Positions 7,391 to 64,000 of a stretch of DNA of 64,000 nt are shown piece after piece. The DNA is from Chloroflexota bacterium (GTDB lineage: Bacteria > Chloroflexota > Anaerolineae > Caldilineales > Caldilineaceae). Location of the stretch: contig JAJRVT010000224.1 of NCBI GenBank assembly GCA_024277175.1, forward strand, positions 1 through 64,000, in the 5' to 3' direction. The notes under the pieces are model-generated. The model was not told the origin of the DNA. It worked only from the letters and a program-made list of their open reading frames with translations, and searched no databases. Position 1 is the stretch's first letter. Every line of letters starts with the position of its first letter. The position numbers were made by a program, and so were the translations under genes.

Positions 7391-10300
7391 CTACTTTGCG
7401 TTCCTTTTGGGCCAAAGTCGAGATAGAGAAATATTTTTCTTAGTGCGCTTAACTTGCTCTACTGAGACAAAATATTTTGAGTATGGATTCTCTTCTGGTA
7501 ATTGGATGTTTTTATCTTGCAACACGCGATGTAACGCCGCAATATATTCGATTTCTCTATCGTTACCACCCTCTTTTTTAAGATAGTCTATGGAGTATTC
7601 TAAACGAGTTAACACTTCGCGTTTTGATTCAGTTCCTCGCATCGCACTAATTGTCTCGTCTGCAAATTTACGAGCAATTGTAGCTGGCATTTTACAACCC
7701 GGTTCAGTGTCAATTTCCGTGAGCAGATCTCCAGCGTATCCAGCATCTAAATTCATCATGCTACGTTCCTGTAGCACAGATATCAATATGTCTATAGCCT
7801 TTTCATGTTCACCGGCTAAATGTAGAGTTTTCGCATAATCTGGAAGAATTACATGTGTCAATAGAGTAGGTACATTTTCCTCTTTTATGATATTAAGAAT
7901 TTTTTCATAGTACATCTTTGCCTGTGAATATAGTCCCTGATCCTGAAATAGAAGAGCAATGTGGTGTAAAGTTATTATACTTTGATCCAAAGCGAAAGGA
8001 GTATCCAATTTATTCGAATGTGACAAGGACTCTTGGTACAATTTGAGAGCATCGGTATAGTTTTTCTTATTGCATGACGATTGTGCCAAAGTAAACAGAG
8101 CTTGTGATATAGCATAGCTGTCATCTACTTTTCTGAATACTCGTAGAGCTTCCAATACGTCTGTTTCTATGTCAGCAGTAGGATTAAATTTGATTAAAAT
8201 ATCTGCTCTTTGTAAGTATGTGCTTGCCCTAAATTTGCGACGTGGTGACGTATGTAATCGATCATATGCATGTTGAATATATGAAAGTGCTGTTTCGTTA
8301 TCACCTTGTGATAAAGCAGATTGACACATATTCACATAAATGTCTGCTGCTTCCTCTCTGACCAACATAGCACACCAATCCATAAGTGCTAAAGAAGTAG
8401 AGCCAATTTCAATCGCCTTTTGGTGATATCCATGTTCTTTTAGAATCGATTGGAACAGACCCATTGAATATATAAACAGACGGGGTAAACCATCGACACG
8501 CCACTCATTTTTAGTCAAAATTTGAGCAAAATCCAAAGATGTCGTGTAAAATTGCATTGCAACCTCTGGCATATTTAGAAACTTTAGGGTGACATTACCA
8601 CCTTCTAGCATCGAGTATAGGAAAGTGGGTTTTTCAAAAGAATCTATATTGGACTGACTGGCAAAGCTTCTGGATGATTGCTCAAATGCTATTGCAGCCA
8701 TACTCCAGTTTTTTAATACTCCTTGAACTCTACCGATCCAATGATATAGTATGCCGTCACTACAACCTAAATCCCTCCAATCACTTTCGTTATATCTGGA
8801 TGTCCAGAAGGTGGCATTATTTGTCTCTTTGAGTGTTAGGGCTTTTTGATAGTTCTCTAGCGTTTCGTCATAACGCGCATATGCCGCCAAAGCTGGATTT
8901 AATTCTCGAATTCTTTCGGCATCATAATTCGAGTTCCCGAGTTTCATATAGTAGCTCGGGCTAATATCAATTATTGATTGCACTTGTTCATCAATGAATC
9001 GGCTATTGTTCAAACAGATTATTTCTAGTGCATCGAGGGATGTTTTTGATATATTAATAGATTCGTCATATATTTTTGGGATAAGTGATGCTCTGATTTT
9101 TCCAACAATTGGGTTATCTATATGCGCTCCAATAATATCTGATAAGCCATAGCCAATTCCACCATAAGCGGTGGGCTGTACATAGTCGATTATTTCAAGA
9201 ATGAGATCGCATAAATCTTCAACGTTAGGAAAACTTTCCGTGTGTCTCGCTAAATAACTGCCAAGACCGTAAGCAGCAGCACTGCATAATTCTGGTATTT
9301 CGCGTTGTTTCAAGTATTTGATAAGCTCTGGATAAGCATCTTCATTACCAACTTTACCAAGGAGTACTAACGTCCACGCCAAATTTGTAATATTTGTAAT
9401 ATCTTCGGCGGCATGAAGATATGATATCAATTGGGGAGTAATATCGATGTAGTCTATAAGGCGCGGATTAAGAATATCATCCGATTGAGATCGATGGAAC
9501 CGCTTGATTAGGGCTAATACTACAGGAGGAATGTCTCGGAAACCAGTTGCTGCAACATTAGCCCCGTGGTTAAGTCTAGGCAATAACAAATCTAAACGGC
9601 TTCGGGCGGCTAAAACCATAGCAATTTGAGATCTCCATGGATCATGTTTGATTACATCTTCAAGTACGCTATCTAGACGTTGCACTAATAAGTCATCAGT
9701 CCAATTCCCATTTTCTTCATAGAGATTTTCTCTCAATATGGTTTTGCACTCATCGCTGTTAATATATGCCAACCCCGTAGCGGCGGAATCTGCAACAAAA
9801 TAGTGCACATATCCCGTGAAAGCGCTACCTCTTGACCAAATTTCGATATCTTTTAGTGCTGTCTTCAAATAGGGAATAGCGTCCAGATGTTTATGTTTGC
9901 CTAAGGTAAGCGCTATATCGTATCGAACACGAGGGTTTGGATGATTCAGGAGGATTTTGCCTAAATCTTTGATGCCTACAGGGCGATTCATCTGGAGAAT
10001 GGCTCTAGCAATCGTGGATGATACGTCTGGGTGATCTGAGTTAATAGCTTCTAGCAACCGGGGGACGGCCCATCCTCCTAAGTTTGATATATACTGCCCA
10101 AACCACTGTTCACGAAGCAGTGATGCGTTTGGCATTTTGTCATAGAAAAAATGCGCACTTTCATCTAGTATCTCTAATATTGCGTCAAGAGCTTCGTAAC
10201 TATGAATATATGACATCGCTTCAACAGCTGTAAGATAGTCTCCCCAGGCCCAACCTAACTCATAAAGAATGTCTCCATTGCTTGTCATTGCCCATGTCGG

Positions 10301-12313
10301 GTTAAGCATTATGGATTTCAGCAGGTGAACGACTTGTTTTTTTTGTTTACTTGTGTCTGACAGACGGTTTGCAATTTTTGCCATTGCGATCAGAATTTCT
10401 GCATTTTTAGGATATTGTTCCTGTAGTTCTATCAATATATCGATCGCTTGTTCATCCCCTATTTCGCCAATGAGCTTCACTAAGTTTCCTTGCGATTTTT
10501 GGGGAAGAATTTTTAATAGAGCTTGTTGGATTTGTTTTCGGTCTGAGCTACTTCGCGTCGATAAAATTCCCAATGAAGCAAGATATGCTTCCTTTTGGAG
10601 ATAATCATCAATATTTTTTAGATCGATACGATGTGCCGCAAAGTAATCAGCGAATAATTGATGCTGAAAGCGTAACTCGTTTTCCTCTAGCGATATGATT
10701 TGGGATTCATCAAGAATTTTTAAAAATTTTGCATCTAATGTCCGTTCGGCTTCTTTGCGCGATAGTAAGCGTTGACCGATTTTTGAGAATGCGATATGAG
10801 CTAAGTCATCAATTACAGCATCCACTTTCGCATACTTTTGCTCCAGAATGTGATCACTTGCTAGCAAATCTAGAATTCTTGGAGTTTCCCATAGGTTTCT
10901 GATTATCGTAGTAACGATGTGCCACTGTGTTCGAGTATATAACAACGTATCGTTAGAATTTTTCGCCTGCAAGTGTTGAAATTCTGTTATCATTGCGGTG
11001 AGAAAGAACGGATTTGTTGCGAGTTGTGAAATGCGAGATTCAAATTTATCCCGGTCCGCCGGAAGTACTATGTTAGTGAATTTATCGGCTAACATAGTAT
11101 CTCTTAGCAACGTGTTGGCAAATGTGAAAATCTCCATAGAATCTAAAGATTTCAATTCGGCAGCAGGTATATTAAAACGCCGAATCCCGAAAAAGTGAGA
11201 TGTTCGACATGTCAATACTAATTTTACGTTTGTTCTTTCTACCCATTCCTTGAGGATACGTATGTTAGAATTAACTTCATCAAGACCATCTAAAAATAAA
11301 CAGAATGGAGTCTTTTCCAATTGCTGCCTTACTGAGTTACCCTGAATTACTGATGCTGGAAGATTATGAGTCAGGTGATTGTGTAAAAAATCATTAAAGT
11401 CTTCTCCTCTCCAACTGTATAGATTAATAAAAACAGGTAATGGAGCTTTCAGATCATCAAGTGCTTTTTGAGCGGCTTGAATCGCAAAATGCCGTAAAAC
11501 AGTAGATTTACCTGCTCCAGATTCTCCAACTAACATAAGTTTACGATATTTGTCATACAGGGTTAAGGCATTTGTACTCGATAATTTGTTATCTTTTGCA
11601 TCAGATGAATTTAATATTTTTGTCTGGAGATCGCAGTATTCTTCAAAGCCAAAAATCGAGCGTTGGTCATTTAACAACTTTGTCATCAAATTTTTAAGAT
11701 ATCGCGTTCGAGGTGTGTCTATTCTGTTGTCTAAGGTAATGACATATTCAATAGGTGTCACTAGAGCAGTAGAAAATTCATCAGATCCTTCTTCTTTTAC
11801 ACGCTCTGTTAATACGCCAATGACATTGTTTTCTCCAAATATTATTGGTGCCCCGCTCATACCATGGTAGCTTCCATGCATGTCCAATTCATACAAGTTA
11901 ATACCATCTCGAATAGTTATTCCTTTTAATTTTCCTTGTGCTGATTTATATTCTCGGTGCAACCCTTTACTTACAGCATATCCAATAACCCAAACATCAG
12001 AGGTGGGAGCAATGTGCGTTAATAATGTGGGAACTTCAATGTCATCTGGTAGAGGTTCAGATAATTCGAGCAATACAATGTCTTCCTGATGGGCAGGCTT
12101 TATCCCGATCAGGGATTTAATTTTAAAAAGTATTGTTTGTCCAAGGGGTTGGAATCGTAAATTGGAGATGGCAATAGGTATATTTGAATTCGGCTTGTTT
12201 ATAACATGGGCGGCTGTTGCAACAAGTCGATAGTCGGGAGCAACAATAAAACCAGATCCAAGTACTTTATCATCTGTACGTATCGTTCCTACAAAAGAAG
12301 GAGGAGTTGGCAT
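7391..12313 (-). CDS. Trypsin-NACHT-HEAT-TPR STAND protein (putative conflict-system effector)
   Basis: A 1640-aa protein. Residues 5-195 are a trypsin-like peptidase with His36 (TAAHV), Asp78 (EDIVLLEL) and Ser153 (GMSGAP). A NACHT-type NTPase follows: Walker A GESGAGKST 263-271, Walker B CLFLDGLDEV 338-347, sensor LVLTCRTS near 366. Residues about 600-1100 are HEAT-like repeats (HPDVSSTIARAILQM, HPNPRVRYDIALTLGKHK) and about 1130-1600 TPR-like repeats. Such STAND NTPases oligomerise on sensing a ligand through the repeats and release an effector, here a protease. It follows a TRYPCO1-type gene by 24 nt. GC is visibly low (about 40% by eye) against its neighbours, suggesting transfer. The ligand and protease target are unknown; the domain call is strong, the defence role is inference from the family. 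Confidence 0.85.
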   Translation of the reverse strand: MPTPPSFVGTIRTDDKVLGSGFIVAPDYRLVATAAHVINKPNSNIPIAISNLRFQPLGQTILFKIKSLIGIKPAHQEDIVLLELSEPLPDDIEVPTLLTHIAPTSDVWVIGYAVSKGLHREYKSAQGKLKGITIRDGINLYELDMHGSYHGMSGAPIIFGENNVIGVLTERVKEEGSDEFSTALVTPIEYVITLDNRIDTPRTRYLKNLMTKLLNDQRSIFGFEEYCDLQTKILNSSDAKDNKLSSTNALTLYDKYRKLMLVGESGAGKSTVLRHFAIQAAQKALDDLKAPLPVFINLYSWRGEDFNDFLHNHLTHNLPASVIQGNSVRQQLEKTPFCLFLDGLDEVNSNIRILKEWVERTNVKLVLTCRTSHFFGIRRFNIPAAELKSLDSMEIFTFANTLLRDTMLADKFTNIVLPADRDKFESRISQLATNPFFLTAMITEFQHLQAKNSNDTLLYTRTQWHIVTTIIRNLWETPRILDLLASDHILEQKYAKVDAVIDDLAHIAFSKIGQRLLSRKEAERTLDAKFLKILDESQIISLEENELRFQHQLFADYFAAHRIDLKNIDDYLQKEAYLASLGILSTRSSSDRKQIQQALLKILPQKSQGNLVKLIGEIGDEQAIDILIELQEQYPKNAEILIAMAKIANRLSDTSKQKKQVVHLLKSIMLNPTWAMTSNGDILYELGWAWGDYLTAVEAMSYIHSYEALDAILEILDESAHFFYDKMPNASLLREQWFGQYISNLGGWAVPRLLEAINSDHPDVSSTIARAILQMNRPVGIKDLGKILLNHPNPRVRYDIALTLGKHKHLDAIPYLKTALKDIEIWSRGSAFTGYVHYFVADSAATGLAYINSDECKTILRENLYEENGNWTDDLLVQRLDSVLEDVIKHDPWRSQIAMVLAARSRLDLLLPRLNHGANVAATGFRDIPPVVLALIKRFHRSQSDDILNPRLIDYIDITPQLISYLHAAEDITNITNLAWTLVLLGKVGNEDAYPELIKYLKQREIPELCSAAAYGLGSYLARHTESFPNVEDLCDLILEIIDYVQPTAYGGIGYGLSDIIGAHIDNPIVGKIRASLIPKIYDESINISKTSLDALEIICLNNSRFIDEQVQSIIDISPSYYMKLGNSNYDAERIRELNPALAAYARYDETLENYQKALTLKETNNATFWTSRYNESDWRDLGCSDGILYHWIGRVQGVLKNWSMAAIAFEQSSRSFASQSNIDSFEKPTFLYSMLEGGNVTLKFLNMPEVAMQFYTTSLDFAQILTKNEWRVDGLPRLFIYSMGLFQSILKEHGYHQKAIEIGSTSLALMDWCAMLVREEAADIYVNMCQSALSQGDNETALSYIQHAYDRLHTSPRRKFRASTYLQRADILIKFNPTADIETDVLEALRVFRKVDDSYAISQALFTLAQSSCNKKNYTDALKLYQESLSHSNKLDTPFALDQSIITLHHIALLFQDQGLYSQAKMYYEKILNIIKEENVPTLLTHVILPDYAKTLHLAGEHEKAIDILISVLQERSMMNLDAGYAGDLLTEIDTEPGCKMPATIARKFADETISAMRGTESKREVLTRLEYSIDYLKKEGGNDREIEYIAALHRVLQDKNIQLPEENPYSKYFVSVEQVKRTKKNISLSRLWPKRNAK

Positions 12314-26531: not shown

Positions 26532-26655
26532 GATTGGAAATCGAAGATTGAGGATTGAAAATTGGACACTGTTGACCTCGCTGACAAGACAGCTACAGGA
26601 AGCGGGAGGGCTCCGCTGTCCAATCTTTAATCCTCAATCTTCAATCTTTCCCCTA
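26532..26655. repeat. P2 palindrome between the HtrA-like gene and pgeF
   Basis: Left arm 26543-26568 has GAAGATTGAGG, ATTGAAAATTGGACACTG; right arm 26615-26655 has the complement of GGGGAAAGATTGAAG, ATTGAGGATTAAAGATTGGAC. The outer right edge includes the TAG of the protease gene. Its TAGGGGAAAGATTGAAG end is nearly identical to the one following the subtilase stop at 18200. Confidence 0.7.
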
Positions 26656-29600
26656 TTCTGGGCTGATGGGGAACAAGTAATAATCCCCCTTGGCGACTTC
26701 CAGTTCGCCGTTGGTGGATCCCCACGGCGGCGGCGCGTCCAGGGTGTAGGTGTACTTGCCGGGATCGAAGCACTGCTCCTTTTCGGCGCTGGGCGCGACT
26801 TTGAAATTGGTGTTCCAACCGTCCCCTTGACGTGTGAAGGTGATGGTGAGTTCCGCACCTAACTGATTCTGGAAGAGGTAGCAGCCCTGGCCGGCGCTGG
26901 CCGATGAGCTTCCGGCCGAGGAGCCGCCGCTCGCAGGCGCCGGCGCTTCGGGGATGGCGTCACAGGCGGCGTTCAGATTGACGTATTGGGCGGCGCCGGA
27001 GACCCAGCCGTTCTGTCCGTCCGGTGCGACGACGGAGAGCCAGGCGCAGTTGTTCACCTGTCCCTGAACCTGGAGCTCATCACCCTTTTGTAATGTGCCT
27101 GCGCGGCGGTAGTTGGTTCCCGGACCGTTGCGCAGATTGAGCGCGTTGACCACGACGGTGGCGGTGGGCGTCTGTCCCTGGTTGGCGGCTGAGCCGCTGG
27201 CTGACGCGCCATCCTGGCCCGTTAGGTTGATGGAGTTGAGGATCGTGTCGAACAGGGGGATATCGTTGCTGCTGGGTAGACTGATGACCACTAACGCACC
27301 TTTGTTTTGGTCCTCCTTGGCCACGCCGGCCAGCACCACCAGACTCTGGTCCTCCAGTCCGCCGCACGTAGTCCAGATGTCGTAACGGCCGATCAGGGTT
27401 TCGCCTTCGTACGGGTAGCGGTCGTCATATTCGCACTCGTCCGAGAACTCAAATGCATCCAGGATCTCGTCCGCATCCATGACCTCCGGCAGGGTGTCCG
27501 AAACGCCCATAAAGAGTCCGGGGATATCCCAACTGGCGTCGAACTCGACCAGGTCGGGGGCGGCCGTCAACGTTCGTCCCACAGCGTTGCCGTCGATCAT
27601 CCAGTCGTCATTTTCGATGTCTGTCCATTCCGCCGGCAGGAGGACGGAGAAAGTGTCCGCTTCGTCGATGAAGGACGCGTACTCCTGTTGCGTCTGCTGC
27701 TCTTCCTGCTGACTTTCCTCCTGGTTGGCCTGGATGAGCGGCTCGGTCGCTGGCGTCACCACATAGAATGTCTCCGCCAGGACGTTGAAGGCCTCGACAT
27801 CAGCGTCACCGCTGCCCTGGGCGAAGAGGAAGACCGCGTGGTCCAGTGGGTCCGATGCTGCTGAGAGCACGACCAGGAAGTTGTCTTCGTCGCCGCAGTT
27901 GCTCCAGATGTCATAGGCCCCGGTATAGTCGATGCCATTGATGCTGTGGGCGTGAGTCTGGCGATCTTCATAGGTGCAATCTTCGGAGAAATCGAGATCG
28001 TCCAGCGCGCCCACCGGATCGTAGCCTTCGACCGGATTCAGATTCGTATAAACGGTGAAGCCGGGCGTGGTCCAGCCGTTGTCATAGCCATCCAGGTCTG
28101 TGGAGGCCGTGAAAATGGAACCGACCGCCTCGTCATCGATGATCCAATCCTCAGAGCGGGCGCCGGTCCAGCTATCCGGGATGAGCGCGTTGATGGCGAC
28201 GTCCTCCACCTGCACGTACGAGTTGAGCAGGCTGCTTTCGCCCTCGTCGCTCGTGATATCGGCGACGTCCGGCTCTTCCTGGGCCTGGCCGGGCGGCGTC
28301 ACAATGAAGCTGTCCAGAATCCGATCCCGGGCCGCCAGATCGATCTCGCTGGCGGCGTAGATCTCGATGGCGAGCAGATAATCATTGGTCTCCGGCGTCA
28401 GTTCCAAGATCCAGACGCTGGAGCCTGCGTCACCGCAGCCGGTCCAGACGTCATAGGGGCCGGTGTAGAATCCCTCTGACAGTTCGGAGCGCTCCACCCC
28501 ATCACAGTTCTCGGTGTAATCGATGGAATCCAGGTAAGCGCCTTGATCGATGGTCCCCGCCAATACGTCGGAATAGCTCATGATCAGGCCGGGGACGCCC
28601 CAGTCACTGAAGAAGGCCTCCAGATCGGGCGAGGCATAGAGCTTGACGCCCACAGTTTGCTCGTCGATCTGCCAGGGATCTTCCTGCACGTCGCTCCAGG
28701 CCGTGGGCACTTCCACGCTGAGGATGCCCTGCTCGTCGCTGATGGCCTGGTACGCCTCATAGGCCGGCGCGGCCTCGGCGGGTGAGCCGTCGGCCGTCTG
28801 GGCGTTCTCCCCCGGCGCTTCCTCGCCACTGTCCAGGGGGATGCTCTGTTCCAGCGTACGGCCGTTCAACTGGCCTTTCAGCATCTCGCCGCTGTCGAAG
28901 CGGAGAACTTCGATGGTGAGCACATCGCCCGGATCGTGGCTGCGCAGGATATCGCAGTAGGTGGACATGGTGCCGTCGGTCGCCAGGGGCACGCCTTCCA
29001 TGTTGAGGATGATGTCGCCGGGCAACAGCCCCACCTGGTCGGCAGGAGAGCCGGACTGGACCGACGCCACCCAGATGCCGAAGAGTTTTTCGCCGTCGCT
29101 CACCGCCTCGCCGTTGATGCCGATGGAGTCGATGTCGACGCCGCTGCGCAGTTGTTCGATGATGGGCAGTGCATCCTTGGCGGCGATGGCGAAGAACTGA
29201 TCGGCGTCATTGCGCCGGTAGTTGATGCCGACAACACGCCCGTCTTCGTCCAGCAGAGGGCCGCCGGAATTGCCGGGGTTGAGGGTGGCGTCGTGCTGCA
29301 ACACCCCGTCCACCGAGGCCCAGTTGGTTTCGCCGCTGGCGCGGGCTTTGGAGATGATGCCCCGGGTCATGGTGTATTCCGGATCGCCCAGCGGGAAGCC
29401 CACGGCGAATACATCCAGCCCTACTTTGACCGGATCCTCCCGCCACTGGAGATAGGGGTAGCCGGACCCCTGGATGTCGATGACGGCCAGATCGGCGCAT
29501 TCATCGACGCCCAGCACCCGGGCGTTGACGGGTTCGTCGCTTCCATTGACATAAACCTTGTATAGCGCGCCGCCGGTGACCACATGGTTGTTGGTCACGG

Positions 29601-29901
29601 CCACGCCGGCTTCGTCGATGATGAATCCGGTGCCCCGGCCGGCGGCGTTGATCCGCAACCCTTCGGCTGGGTCCACAAATGTGCCCACGGACTCGATGAG
29701 CACCACGGCCTGCTGGGCGTCCTCCAGGTTGTCGATGGCCAGATCGTCGGCGTCGCCGGCGTCCGTGGGTGGGCTGACTTGTTGGATGGCTGCGGTCCGT
29801 CCGCCGTCCGCCAGGACGCTGCTCTGGGGGATCAACATAATGGCGATCGCCAGGCTCAACGCAGCCAGGACCGCCCTGGGCGGAGAAATGTTTCGATACA
29901 T
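26653..29901 (-). CDS. Secreted HtrA-like serine protease with three tandem repeat domains and SH3b
   Basis: A 1082-aa exported protein. Signal peptide 1-31 (VLAALSLAIAIMLIPQSSVL). Trypsin-like domain with His106 (TNNHVV), Asp137 (CADLAV) and Ser212 (NPGNSGGP), then a PDZ domain (about 262-345, GLLPGDIILNMEGVPLA). Three homologous modules of about 150 residues follow (384-535, 561-714, 741-893), each with a 'WxxxxxxxWxID...VG', 'WxxPG' and 'YDxWxxCG' pattern. An SH3b domain (913-976, NLRNGPGTNYRRAG) and a Cys-containing C-terminal domain (1004-1082) end it. AGGAG precedes the ATG at 29901. It is likely an envelope quality-control or sensory protease; the repeats are not a family I can name. 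Confidence 0.82.
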   Translation of the reverse strand: MYRNISPPRAVLAALSLAIAIMLIPQSSVLADGGRTAAIQQVSPPTDAGDADDLAIDNLEDAQQAVVLIESVGTFVDPAEGLRINAAGRGTGFIIDEAGVAVTNNHVVTGGALYKVYVNGSDEPVNARVLGVDECADLAVIDIQGSGYPYLQWREDPVKVGLDVFAVGFPLGDPEYTMTRGIISKARASGETNWASVDGVLQHDATLNPGNSGGPLLDEDGRVVGINYRRNDADQFFAIAAKDALPIIEQLRSGVDIDSIGINGEAVSDGEKLFGIWVASVQSGSPADQVGLLPGDIILNMEGVPLATDGTMSTYCDILRSHDPGDVLTIEVLRFDSGEMLKGQLNGRTLEQSIPLDSGEEAPGENAQTADGSPAEAAPAYEAYQAISDEQGILSVEVPTAWSDVQEDPWQIDEQTVGVKLYASPDLEAFFSDWGVPGLIMSYSDVLAGTIDQGAYLDSIDYTENCDGVERSELSEGFYTGPYDVWTGCGDAGSSVWILELTPETNDYLLAIEIYAASEIDLAARDRILDSFIVTPPGQAQEEPDVADITSDEGESSLLNSYVQVEDVAINALIPDSWTGARSEDWIIDDEAVGSIFTASTDLDGYDNGWTTPGFTVYTNLNPVEGYDPVGALDDLDFSEDCTYEDRQTHAHSINGIDYTGAYDIWSNCGDEDNFLVVLSAASDPLDHAVFLFAQGSGDADVEAFNVLAETFYVVTPATEPLIQANQEESQQEEQQTQQEYASFIDEADTFSVLLPAEWTDIENDDWMIDGNAVGRTLTAAPDLVEFDASWDIPGLFMGVSDTLPEVMDADEILDAFEFSDECEYDDRYPYEGETLIGRYDIWTTCGGLEDQSLVVLAGVAKEDQNKGALVVISLPSSNDIPLFDTILNSINLTGQDGASASGSAANQGQTPTATVVVNALNLRNGPGTNYRRAGTLQKGDELQVQGQVNNCAWLSVVAPDGQNGWVSGAAQYVNLNAACDAIPEAPAPASGGSSAGSSSASAGQGCYLFQNQLGAELTITFTRQGDGWNTNFKVAPSAEKEQCFDPGKYTYTLDAPPPWGSTNGELEVAKGDYYLFPISPE

Positions 29902-30252
29902 GGTATACTCCTTGTTGTACTTGATGTTATTGCACTTGACGTTGTACGCGAATGCGGGTGTAGCAAACGAACGATCAGCACAGAGGTGGAGGCGTGATTG
30001 GATGGAGAACAATCTGCACTTGATTTTGGCTATACACGTTGAATTGTAGACCAGATCGGGGGTGCGCGCAACCACGATTTTTGAGGAGATGAACTCGACC
30101 TTCGGCGCGTGACGCTCATTAAGTTTATCGTAGCATAGTCCAAAAACCTTCGGTCTCCGGGATTGAAAAAAATACTGAAAATGAAACATCGCCAGTGTAC
30201 AGACCGTCTGTGAATGTGTGGTCTGATTCATAGCAAACGGGGAACCATACGC
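29902..30252. other. Divergent intergenic region
   Basis: 351 nt between two divergently transcribed genes. Near the protease start, GTACAACGTCAAGTGCAATA and ACATCAAGTACAACAAGGAG contain a direct repeat of CAAGT and GTACAAC around the ribosome site. Toward 30090-30200 the sequence is AT-richer (AAGTTTATCGTAGCATAGTCC, TTGAAAAAAATACTGAAAAT) and may hold both promoters, but no clean -35/-10 pair stands out. No gene is evident. Confidence 0.35.
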
Positions 30253-30717
30253 ATGTCGTCTCAAAATCAATCTGCAGAACGTAAATCCATCATCGGCCTT
30301 TTTCTGTGGAGCGGGCTGATCCTTCTCTCCGCGGGGCTGCTGATCTATCTGGTCGTCGCAGGCGGACAGACAGTGGGCGAGGCCGGCGTCACCCTGCCGC
30401 GCCCGGTGGTGACGCCGGAGCCGGGCGGGGGCGGCGGCAACCAACCTGAGGGCGCGGCAAGCGACATCAGCCCCGCTCAGCCGGGCGAGAGCGGCGGTGA
30501 AGCCGGGAGCGGGATGTGGGCGCTTTGGATCTCGGCCCTGACCCTGATCACGTCTACGGTGGGGCTGGTTTCCAACGCCTGGCTGGGCTGGCGCAAGGAG
30601 CTGCGCGCGGCCCGGCGGGATCGGCTGGAGGCTCAACAGTTGCGGGCCGAACTGGAGAAGACGCTGCTGGAGGTGCAGCAGTTGCGGGCCGAACTGGCGG
30701 GTGAGAAAGACGCTTGA
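30253..30717 (+). CDS. Small two-helix membrane protein with C-terminal coiled coil
   Basis: A 154-aa protein of unknown function. One membrane helix at about 16-38 (FLWSGLILLSAGLLIYLVVAG), a Pro/Gly/Glu-rich periplasmic-type linker (about 45-85), a second helix at about 88-110 (WALWISALTLITSTVGLVSN) and a charged coiled coil to the end with two copies of QQLRAEL (LEAQQLRAELEKTLLEVQQL). Start at 30253 (MSSQNQSAERK) chosen as the first ATG giving a normal N-in anchor. It is monocistronic and followed by the TumA/TumE-like pair. Confidence 0.55.
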   Translation: MSSQNQSAERKSIIGLFLWSGLILLSAGLLIYLVVAGGQTVGEAGVTLPRPVVTPEPGGGGGNQPEGAASDISPAQPGESGGEAGSGMWALWISALTLITSTVGLVSNAWLGWRKELRAARRDRLEAQQLRAELEKTLLEVQQLRAELAGEKDA

Positions 30718-30846
30718 CGGAATCCGTGGGGGCGAGTAGGATAGCGGGTAGGTGGCTGTGTAGCGGATGGGAGAATAATTTGATGAGCGTACACATAGTA
30801 ATCGAATTCGAGGAATCAAATAGGGCGCACGCTTGTTGTCCAGGCG

Positions 30847-31080
30847 GTGGAAAGCTATAAAGCCCGCCTGCGCGCGAGTATTCAACGCACACAACATCGT
30901 CTGGCCGAATTTGAAAGCAAATATCAAGTCAGCGCCGAACGATTTTTGGCGGAGATGACCGCAGAGGATTTACAGGGCGGCGATCTTGAATATGTGGAGT
31001 GGGCGGACGAAGCCAAACTGTTGAAAGGGTTGGAAGTGGAACTGAACGGGCTGGAACATGCGCGCTACCAGCTTCCCTGA
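30847..31080 (+). CDS. TumA-type antitoxin of a TumE system
   Basis: A 77-aa charged helical protein: ESYKARLRASIQRTQHRL, AEFESKYQVSAERFLAEMT and DLQGGDLEYVEWADEAKLL. This pattern (ESYxxxLxxxIxxTxxRLxxFExKY...GGDxEYVEWAGE) is the usual partner gene of TumE (DUF6516) toxins. The only start in the open frame is GTG at 30847, with weak ribosome signals. It overlaps the toxin start by 23 nt. The antitoxin appears intact while its toxin is broken, so the toxin could be lost without harm. Confidence 0.6.
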   Translation: MESYKARLRASIQRTQHRLAEFESKYQVSAERFLAEMTAEDLQGGDLEYVEWADEAKLLKGLEVELNGLEHARYQLP

Positions 31081-58877: not shown

Positions 58878-59049
58878 ATGGACGATGGTCTTAGCGGCCT
58901 TCGTATGCATTTAGCGTATAATGGCGAGGACCCTGGCGCGGCGGGATGCGTGCGCGGGGAGGGCGTTGACGGTTTTGCGGAGCGATCCCACAGTCAACGC
59001 AGGAGACGAAACAGTCCATTGTTTGCTCATCACCTGGAGGTTGATTTTC

Positions 59050-59069
<20 letters not shown>
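58878..59069 (+). CDS. Small ORF with perfect Shine-Dalgarno upstream of leuA
   Basis: AAAGGAGGTGAT (58860-58871) is the full anti-SD complement, 7 nt before an ATG opening a 63-codon frame [20 protein letters not shown]... that ends 20 nt inside leuA. The peptide is Arg/Ser/Glu-rich with no family similarity that I see and its codon use is not gene-like, so it may be a translated leader coupling into leuA rather than a protein with its own job. Confidence 0.35.
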
Positions 59070-60867
<1,798 letters not shown>

Positions 60868-61012
60868 GTGACAGAATGACAGGGTGAGGGGGTGACAGGA
60901 TGACAAGGTGACAAGGTGACAGGGTGACTCGTCACGCATCACGTTTTACGTTTCACGTTTTACACTTCATCTTGTCACCCCCTCATCTTGCCATCCTGTC
61001 ATCTTGCCAGGA
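60868..61012. repeat. P3 octamer palindrome, longest and clearest copy
   Basis: In strict 8-base register: GTGACAGA, ATGACAGG, GTGAGGGG, GTGACAGG, ATGACAAG, GTGACAAG, GTGACAGG, then a loop of CACGTTTTACGTTTCACG type, then CTTGTCAC, CCCCTCAT, CTTGCCAT, CCTGTCAT, CTTGCCAG. It begins at the base after the leuA stop and ends 6 nt before the next start. Confidence 0.85.
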
Positions 61013-61018
61013 ACAAGA

Positions 61019-62917
61019 ATGCATTCTGAATTGCGTGGATGGAAACGATGGCTGTTGGCGGCGCTGGCGGGGTCGCTGATCCTGAGCCTGGCGGTGGTGG
61101 ACGCTGTCATGCTTTCGGTCGGGCAGGCCCTGGCCGCGCCCATGCTCCAAAACGAAGAGGACCTGGGCGCGTGCGCCGACCTGAACGAGGAGGACCTGCG
61201 GGGGGAATTGAACGTCATCGCCCAGCAGATCTTCGCCGCGGACGAAAACGGCATCGATCTGGAGGTCATGGTCGACGAGGCCTGGCGCGAGCTGGGCATG
61301 GACCGCCTGATCGACCGCCAGGTGGACGCAGCCATCGCCCGGGTGCGGCGGGACGAGGAAACCTTGGACAAATTTCTCTCCGGCTGGTCGCCCGACAAAG
61401 CGGAGGAGTTGACCTATCTGGTGGCCGCGGCGGTCTTTGATTCGGAAGAGTTCCGCCAGGCCATCGACAAACTCTCGGCCCGGGTCGCGGCCCGGATCGA
61501 GGCCCGGATCTCGGCATTGGCGGCTGAGTCCGTGGCGGTCAATCTGCTCTGTCTGCGTCAGTTCATCGACCGTCACTACGCAGAGGCTGTGGTCGTCGCC
61601 TTCGCCACTGACATCAGCCAAAGCGCTTCCGACGCCGATCTGGTGACGGCCAACGACCTGGAAAACGGCATCATGTCCGTCATCGACCTCCATAAGACCG
61701 CGCTGGGCGGCGTGGGCGTCATCATCGCCGTTCAGATCGCGCGCCGGATCGCGGTGCGCATCGCCCGCGATCTGTCGGAGCGGGTGGCGGGACGGATCTC
61801 CCTGCGCATCCTGGGCCGGGTGGGCACGGAAGTGATCCCCCTGGTGGGCTGGATCGTCGGCGCCGGCTTGATCATCTACGACGTGATCGACAGCTTGGAC
61901 GGCGCGCTGCCCCAGATCCAGAAGTCCCTCAAAGAGGAGGAGGTGAAGGCCGCCATCCGCGAGGAGATCGTCGCCTCCGCGGAGCCGGAGCTACGCCAGG
62001 CGATGCCGTTGCTGGCCCGGGAGATCGCCAATGATCTCTATGGCGAGTGGCTGGACTTCAAACGCAAGCACCGGCAGATTCTGGCCCTGGCCGAAGAGAA
62101 TCCGGCCTTCGAGGCCATTCTCTCCCAGGCGGACGATCTGGGGCAGGTGGCCGAACTGGTGGATGTGGCTCTGGCGAGCGTGGGACGCAAGGCGCTGGAA
62201 CAGGCTATCGACGACGGCTCTTTCGCCGCGGTGCTGGCCCTGCCGTCGGCAGGCGCGGTCATTTTGGCCGGCAGCGGTTCGTTTCAGACCACCCTGGCCT
62301 GGGGCGAGTTGGCCGGCCCGGACCTGGATCGGGTGGTGGAATCGGAACTCTATCGATATCAGGACCCGTCGGCGCTGAACCGGGCGTTGCTGGGCGAATT
62401 GCTGGACATAGACGATCCCGCGGTCATCGCCAAACTGGGCGGCCTGGATCAGCCGTCGATTGCGACCCTGCTGGACGTCTCCACGGCCAGCCTGAACGAA
62501 CTGGCCTACAGCCTGACGCCCTACGAACTGGCGCAACTGGCGACCACGTTGGATGGCATGGATCAGGCGGGGCGCAACCAACTGGTGACCATTATCGTCG
62601 CCGACCCGGAGGTGGTGGCCATGCTCACCCGGCCGGAGATGCAGCGCTACATTCAGTCCGGGCGCGATCTGAACGCGGCTATCGCTTTTCTGAACGGTCC
62701 GGGCGACGCCGGCGGCTATGTCAATGATCTCTTCCGACTGGCCACCCGCCGGGTTTCCCTGGACCTGTTCGCGGCCAAGTATGGCTGGCCGCTGACGATT
62801 ATGGCCATTCTGGGGCCCATTGTGGTGGCGCTGGCCCTGGCGTCCGCGCTGCTGGGATTTATTTTCCGGCCCATCACCAGCGTGATCGGCCTCTTTGGCG
62901 GGGGGCGGCGATCATGA
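61019..62917 (+). CDS. Large membrane protein of unknown function, paralogue 1
   Basis: A 632-aa exported or membrane protein. Signal/anchor about 11-40 ([20 protein letters not shown]). Residues 45-205 are helical with Cys52 and Cys178 and the [20 protein letters not shown] motif. A helical repeat-like stretch ([20 protein letters not shown]) precedes a membrane segment about 270-290 ([20 protein letters not shown]). A long helical region follows, and a C-terminal helix about 592-615 ([20 protein letters not shown]). The ATG at 61019 is the first after the P3 array. It overlaps the YbjQ gene by 4 nt. No family recognised; a paralogue lies at 63236. Confidence 0.6.
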
Positions 62918-63243
62918 GCGAGCGGCATGTGGCGTTGATCAGCCTGGATGTTGCGCCGGACCGCGATATCCGGATCGGCGAGATCGTGACCGCGGTCGCG
63001 GTGCCGGCGGCCAACGTGGTCAAGGACATCCGCGAAAATATTCGCAACCTGACCGGCGGACGCATGCACCATTACGAGCGTTTGGTGGAGGACGCTATTG
63101 ATTTCGCCCTGCACGACCTGGAGCGCAAGGCGCGCGAGCGGGGCTACGACGGCGTGATCGGCGTCAAGCTCTCCCATCCCCATGTGGTGGACGGGGGCGT
63201 GGAGATCATCGCCTATGGAAATGGGTTCTGGCGCAATGGGTAA
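62914..63243 (+). CDS. YbjQ-family (UPF0145) protein
   Basis: A 109-aa protein with the family pattern [40 protein letters not shown] and [18 protein letters not shown]. YbjQ proteins form pentamers of a metal-binding-like fold; their role is unknown. The start ATGA overlaps the upstream stop and its TAA overlaps the next gene's start by 8 nt, so three genes are translationally coupled. The usual family start is a bit shorter, with an extra N-terminal strand here ([12 protein letters not shown]). Confidence 0.8.
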
Positions 63244-64000
63244 GTCGCTCTCCCTGCTGATGGCGTTGGTTCTCTTCTGGAGCGCGACGTTCGCCCAGGC
63301 CGCGCCGGCGGTGGCCGCCGCCCCGACCGCGCGACCGCCAGCATCCGGCCATGCCAGCGGACTCTATCAGGGCTACACCTACGAAGAGTGTAGCCAGATC
63401 GACGCTGAGTCCCTGCGGCAGGAGATCAACGATCTGACCAGGGCGGTGCTGGACCAAGGGGTGGCCGGCATCGACATCGCCGCAATTGTGGACCGGCAGT
63501 GGCGGGAGATGAACATGGACGCGGTGGTGGACGCCGCGGTCAACGACGCGGTGGATCGCCTGCGTGAGGAGGAGGACTACTGGAGTCGTTTTCTCTCCGG
63601 TTGGTCGGTGGAGAAAGCCCGGGAGTTCGCCACCGCGGTCGCCGCCGAAGCGTTCGGGTCCAGCCAGTTCCAGGACGCGTCCAGGGCCCTCTCCACCGCG
63701 GTCGCGGTCGAGCTCACCGATGAGATCACGGCCATGTCCGCCCGTTCCGCGTCCACGGCCCTGCTCTGTATGCAGACCTATGTGGGCGAGCGTTACTCGG
63801 AGACCCTCTTCGCGCTTTTCGAAAAGGAAATCAGCGCCGGCGTCAGCGAGGTGGACCTGACGGTGGAGGGAAGCCTGGATCTTTCGGCTCTGGGCGCCCA
63901 TGAGGCGGCGTTGACGGGGATGAGCGTCATCATCGTCACCCAGATCGTGCGCCGGATCGCGCGCAAGTTGAGCCGCGACGTGGGCGAACGCATCGCCGGC
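63236..64000 (+). CDS. Large membrane protein of unknown function, paralogue 2 (partial)
   Basis: A frame from ATG 63236 stays open for 255 codons to the window end. Signal peptide [20 protein letters not shown]. It aligns throughout with paralogue 1: '[18 protein letters not shown]' with '[18 protein letters not shown]', [20 protein letters not shown] with [40 protein letters not shown] with [20 protein letters not shown], and [20 protein letters not shown] with [20 protein letters not shown]. Two Cys are shared. The C-terminal half is outside the window. Confidence 0.65.

Follow-up and report, generated by a model that had tools for sequence, protein, structure and literature searches.

Gene A of the window (the whole 64,000-nt stretch of DNA analysed here) and the YbjQ-family gene that follows it form a pair that recurs, one directly after the other, in at least four bacterial phyla. 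The genetic link between A and YbjQ is well supported, and we put the probability that their products work together at about 0.85. In the window the pair is followed by a third gene, C, whose product is related to that of A. The first-pass annotation had read the three genes as a paralogue-YbjQ-paralogue unit. The neighbourhood is indeed conserved, well beyond one genome, and the trio gives way to A-YbjQ as the basic unit.

The features of the locus are listed in Table 1. Both of the overlaps noted earlier, of 4 and 8 nt, are seen in the sequence. C could also start at either of two other in-frame ATGs, 63215 and 63221. The end of the window interrupts C, while the contig runs on to 66761 and carries a glutamate synthase (gltB) open reading frame (ORF) downstream of it.

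Table 1. Features of the A-YbjQ-C locus and its upstream flank.
Feature	Coordinates	Strand	Details	Basis or remark
Gene A	61019..62917	+	ATG 61019, 632 aa	ORF and translation
Gene B (YbjQ)	62914..63243	+	ATG 62914, 109 aa	Pfam PF01906
Gene C	63236..64000 in the window	+	continues to contig position 65050 (L004:3236-5050)	604 aa
A/YbjQ stop/start overlap	62914..62917	+	ATGA, 4 nt	sequence
YbjQ/C overlap	63236..63243	+	8 nt, given C start ATG 63236	sequence
leuA (2-isopropylmalate synthase-like), presumed	58921..60867	+	start tentative	upstream neighbour conserved in Caldilineaceae
Palindromic intergenic repeat, leuA to A	60866..61004		arms 38 nt, 84% complementary	

The proteins encoded by A and C are clear paralogues, as had been proposed from shared motifs: BLASTP aligns them at 38% identity over 476 aa (E 4e-103), FLSGWS, LLC and RRIA occur in both, and the two cysteines that they have in common are C52 and C178 in each. 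These two positions are occupied by cysteine in 30/30 and 30/31 of the family members that cover the region, across phyla. Three hydrophobic segments were found in A, namely an N-terminal one (residues 12-30) followed by an AxA-like site, a central one (272-290) and a C-terminal one (594-612). All 46 of 46 A/C family members begin with a hydrophobic stretch and an AxA-like site, and in most members basic residues come after a hydrophobic helix near the C-terminus.

AlphaFold2 predicts the same architecture for A and C, with mean pLDDT values of 85.5 and 83.7, respectively. More specifically, a helical N-domain leads into a helix of 53-64 residues, then into a helical superhelix and finally into the C-terminal helix. 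The superhelix is modelled very confidently; the 53-64 residue helix, Arg-rich first and then hydrophobic, has low confidence. The models thus show A and C as mostly exported, all-helical proteins with a single C-terminal anchor, not as polytopic ones. From these features we infer both this topology and a disulphide between C52 and C178. The earlier description of large membrane proteins with signal peptides holds for the signal-peptide-like N-termini and fails where it implies polytopic proteins, since each has one clear C-terminal membrane segment.

To place the A/C family, 35 members were scanned against Pfam and NCBIfam, and nothing came near the cut-off for the A of the window. Any one Pfam family was matched by at most 2 of the 35 (best E 0.006) and any one NCBIfam family by at most 6 (best E 0.016). 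A sequence-profile search of the PDB with A/C gave a best E of 0.24, which is not significant, PHROGs gave no significant match, and at the sensitivity used neither phage nor plasmid collections contained the family. A match of A residues 522-547 to STI1/Tic40-like domains (Pfam E 0.032, PDB E 0.24) was rejected as too weak. In Foldseek searches with the AlphaFold2 models the best match had E 0.51 with the model of A and E 0.04 with that of C, and TM-scores were low throughout. The suggestion that no known system has this make-up is borne out, none being matched in the Pfam, NCBIfam, PADLOC, PHROGs and PDB searches. For the A/C protein family no sequence or fold relative was recognised.

The matches that did appear fall mostly on the central segment. 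In PADLOC no defence model matched along the length of the proteins, and most matches were short and weak; for A they involved LeoBC, PDC-S29 and PDC-S30 (best E 4e-5). Dynamin-like proteins were also among the weak Foldseek matches (SynDLP, probability 0.13-0.20). Such matches would fit a membrane-active A, resembling a dynamin stalk or a pore-forming hairpin, that remodels or permeabilises the membrane through its central helix while YbjQ regulates or restrains it. We regard this as unlikely, because the dynamin- and pore-type matches lie mainly within one compositionally biased segment, no Foldseek match has E below 0.04, and neither a GTPase nor any other domain rises above the Pfam or NCBIfam cut-offs. 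With dynamin-like proteins (LeoBC, SynDLP, BDLP) A and C share long helices, a glycine-rich hydrophobic segment and weak profile or fold similarity; they differ in being predicted to be exported, in lacking a GTPase domain and in having no significant fold match. The resemblance to PDC-S29 and PDC-S30 is likewise weak and extends over ~45-60 residues of the Arg-rich/hydrophobic segment, whereas the remainder of A/C is unmatched and the A-YbjQ module lies among housekeeping genes in one family.

The middle gene had been assigned to the YbjQ family, and this assignment is firm: its product matches PF01906 at E 1.5e-16, covering profile positions 10-98 of 103 and scoring 61.3 bits where the gathering score is 23. 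By sequence it is thus a member of the YbjQ / UPF0145 / DUF74 family, and a profile built from its relatives matches the YbjQ structures 2gtc, 1vr4 and 1y2i. Because the protein has no signal peptide, it is expected to be cytosolic. What sets the B-type proteins apart from 2gtc and 1vr4 is a GGRMxHYE and ...HPxVVDGGVEVIVYGNGF signature, and from other YbjQ proteins their pairing with A and their lack of cysteine. The Pfam name of PF01906 suggests heavy-metal binding; cysteine is absent from the gene B product and from 24/25 B-type proteins, a lack that lends such binding no support, although other residues may bind metal. The family is widespread, a PF01906 search having found it in 10/14 control genomes, E. 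coli among them. The relatives with solved structures form homopentamers, and a single ring of 1vr4 contains subunits that differ in fold (PMC2954204; PMC4092069). In the YbjQ literature we found no membrane partner described and no established function.

An activity as thiamin phosphate synthase has been ascribed to YbjQ proteins (PMC7084401), and ThiE (PF02581) was undetected in 36/37 Caldilineaceae genomes, so that YbjQ might be imagined as an analogue of that enzyme here. We give this next to no credence. The study that PMC7084401 cites concerns, by its reference title, YjbQ, which is a different family, and ThiE is undetected alike in Caldilineaceae genomes with and without YbjQ. The ascription reflects a mix-up of the names YjbQ and YbjQ, and the function should not be carried over. 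Given how consistently ThiE escapes detection, Caldilineaceae may make thiamin phosphate in some other way or not at all.

We then consider how A and YbjQ are distributed. Of the 61 genomes sampled, 28 carry A-family genes; all 28 are Caldilineaceae, and 24 other families of the class yielded none. Among the 37 Caldilineaceae genomes, 26 carry A and YbjQ, 2 carry A only, 2 carry YbjQ only and 7 carry neither (hypergeometric p ~1e-4, computed by hand and ignoring kinship). In both A-only genomes (G019, G023) the contig stops at the A gene, just where YbjQ would be expected. The two YbjQ-only genomes hold an intact gene (G027) and fragments (G030). In G027 YbjQ has relocated beside a pyrK-like gene, the stop of which its start overlaps (L098:4794-5899), and no A gene was found in that genome. 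The PF01906 search detects at most one YbjQ per Caldilineaceae genome, and all but one of the 27 intact copies share their genome with A. YbjQ adjoins an A-family gene in nearly all loci of the family. Here and in other phyla its start usually lies within -44 to +40 nt of the stop of A, and many relatives show the 4-nt overlap of the window or a spacing close to zero. In Caldilineaceae, then, YbjQ occurs in essence as a companion of A.

Adjacency within this family proves little on its own, being in part general synteny: nearly all Caldilineaceae loci keep the block order ilvB/N/C-leuA-[A-YbjQ-C]-gltB. With leuA upstream and gltB downstream almost throughout, the genes could be together merely through preservation of the ilv-leu-gltB order, with no functional link between them. 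Tree distances do not settle the matter: they correlate no better between A and YbjQ (r 0.45) than between either gene and leuA as control (A-leuA 0.74, YbjQ-leuA 0.61), which makes the measure uninformative. The joint absence of A and YbjQ from seven genomes argues against mere synteny, and the decisive evidence for a link is recurrence of the pair in other phyla among different neighbours.

Such recurrence was found by scanning GTDB genomes with a YbjQ alignment, a search that is biased towards YbjQ proteins carrying GGRMxHYE and that returned 45 loci. A lies directly upstream of YbjQ in six loci from Cyanobacteria (L065, L074, L081 from Anabaenopsis elenkinii, L084, L085 and L108), in Truepera of the Deinococcota (L086) and in two Myxococcota/'Deltaproteobacteria' metagenome-assembled genomes (MAGs; L082, L090), the nine A ORFs scoring E 1e-27 to 1e-161 in hmmsearch. 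Further pairs lie beside ribosomal protein genes in a cyanobacterium (L128) and, in a member of the Deinococcota (L129), beside what we take to be carotenoid-type genes. An Aquificota MAG and a Deinococcales MAG contain both A and YbjQ, on separate contigs. Identity between phyla is about 22-37%, a divergence that argues against contamination of the assemblies from Caldilineaceae. These pairs, among unrelated neighbours, largely refute the reading without a functional link, which we consider very improbable. Because the neighbours differ between phyla, A-YbjQ constitutes a self-contained core unit.

Sampling by phylum gave 2/244 for Cyanobacteriota (1 already known), 3/111 for Deinococcota (2 known), 1/101 for Aquificota (known) and, with shallow scoring, 0/399 for Chloroflexota apart from the genome of the window. 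These surveys show that outside Caldilineaceae the module is sporadic and rare.

The position after ilvB/N/C-leuA and before gltB could also point to a role of the module in the metabolism of branched-chain amino acids or of glutamate, for instance as a sensor or a transporter accessory. The same cross-phylum comparison makes this improbable too: in other phyla the neighbours are others, and leuA is not part of the module there. No transporter or ligand-binding domain was recognised, and in the window a dispersed palindromic repeat parts leuA from A. This repeat, built of GTGACAGGRTGAC-like units, has at least 96 matches in the genome including its own copy, with 40 of 306 candidates scored, and is a dispersed REP/BIME-like intergenic element. 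Elsewhere in the window, two very long ORFs lie on the - strand, at 7391-12313 (1640 aa) and 26653-30927 (1424 aa).

The phylogenetic tree separates an A clade from a C clade, the subclades of the two mirroring each other, and sets apart a further clade of single A-type proteins that precede YbjQ. The cyanobacterial proteins cluster with the A clade (support 92/99). Most likely, A was duplicated in part of the Caldilineaceae to give C, which has been retained with A since.

Members of the single-A clade of Caldilineaceae have a conserved VNVTVNIP-like tail after the membrane helix. In multi-copy genomes of this clade, the tail is present only on the copy adjoining YbjQ and is missing from extra copies of 1026-1645 aa. 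The tail is also missing from the A and C of the window and from the members in all other phyla; it therefore does not identify a universal docking site. The extra copies belong to one Caldilineaceae genus and repeat the C-terminal helical unit; they lie directly upstream of the A-YbjQ pair in L054, L055, L058, L059, L069, L071, L073, L075, L079, L092 and L096.

We propose the following mechanism for the way in which A and YbjQ may work together. A would be exported by its signal sequence and fold outside the cytoplasm into an all-helical protein with one invariant disulphide, anchored by one C-terminal membrane helix, whose short, basic tail would reach into the cytosol. Its Arg-rich/hydrophobic central helix probably lies on the membrane or dips into it. 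YbjQ, as in its solved relatives, would form a cytosolic pentamer and bind the cytosolic ends of A. By gathering several A (or A/C) subunits, the pentamer would produce one transmembrane cluster, in the lineage of the window probably an A/C heteromer, whose role would most likely be the structural organisation of the envelope.

The pentamer in this organism, the physical contact with A and the clustering are all steps that we infer, and we hold them with graded confidence. Whether A and YbjQ touch is, in our judgement, an even bet. That a cytosolic YbjQ ring gathers membrane-anchored A or A/C subunits by their cytosolic tails is a possibility to which we give slightly less than even chances. 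The most specific form of the model, which we consider doubtful, is a transmembrane assembly of a kind not described before: a cytosolic YbjQ pentamer that switches conformation would arrange membrane-anchored helical arms outside the cytoplasm, made up of A alone or of A together with C.

If true, such an assembly would provide the first specific partner, and the first function, for the YbjQ family. With the A-YbjQ pair recurring, the role of YbjQ rings becomes a question that can be put directly, by testing for interaction with a specific membrane partner.
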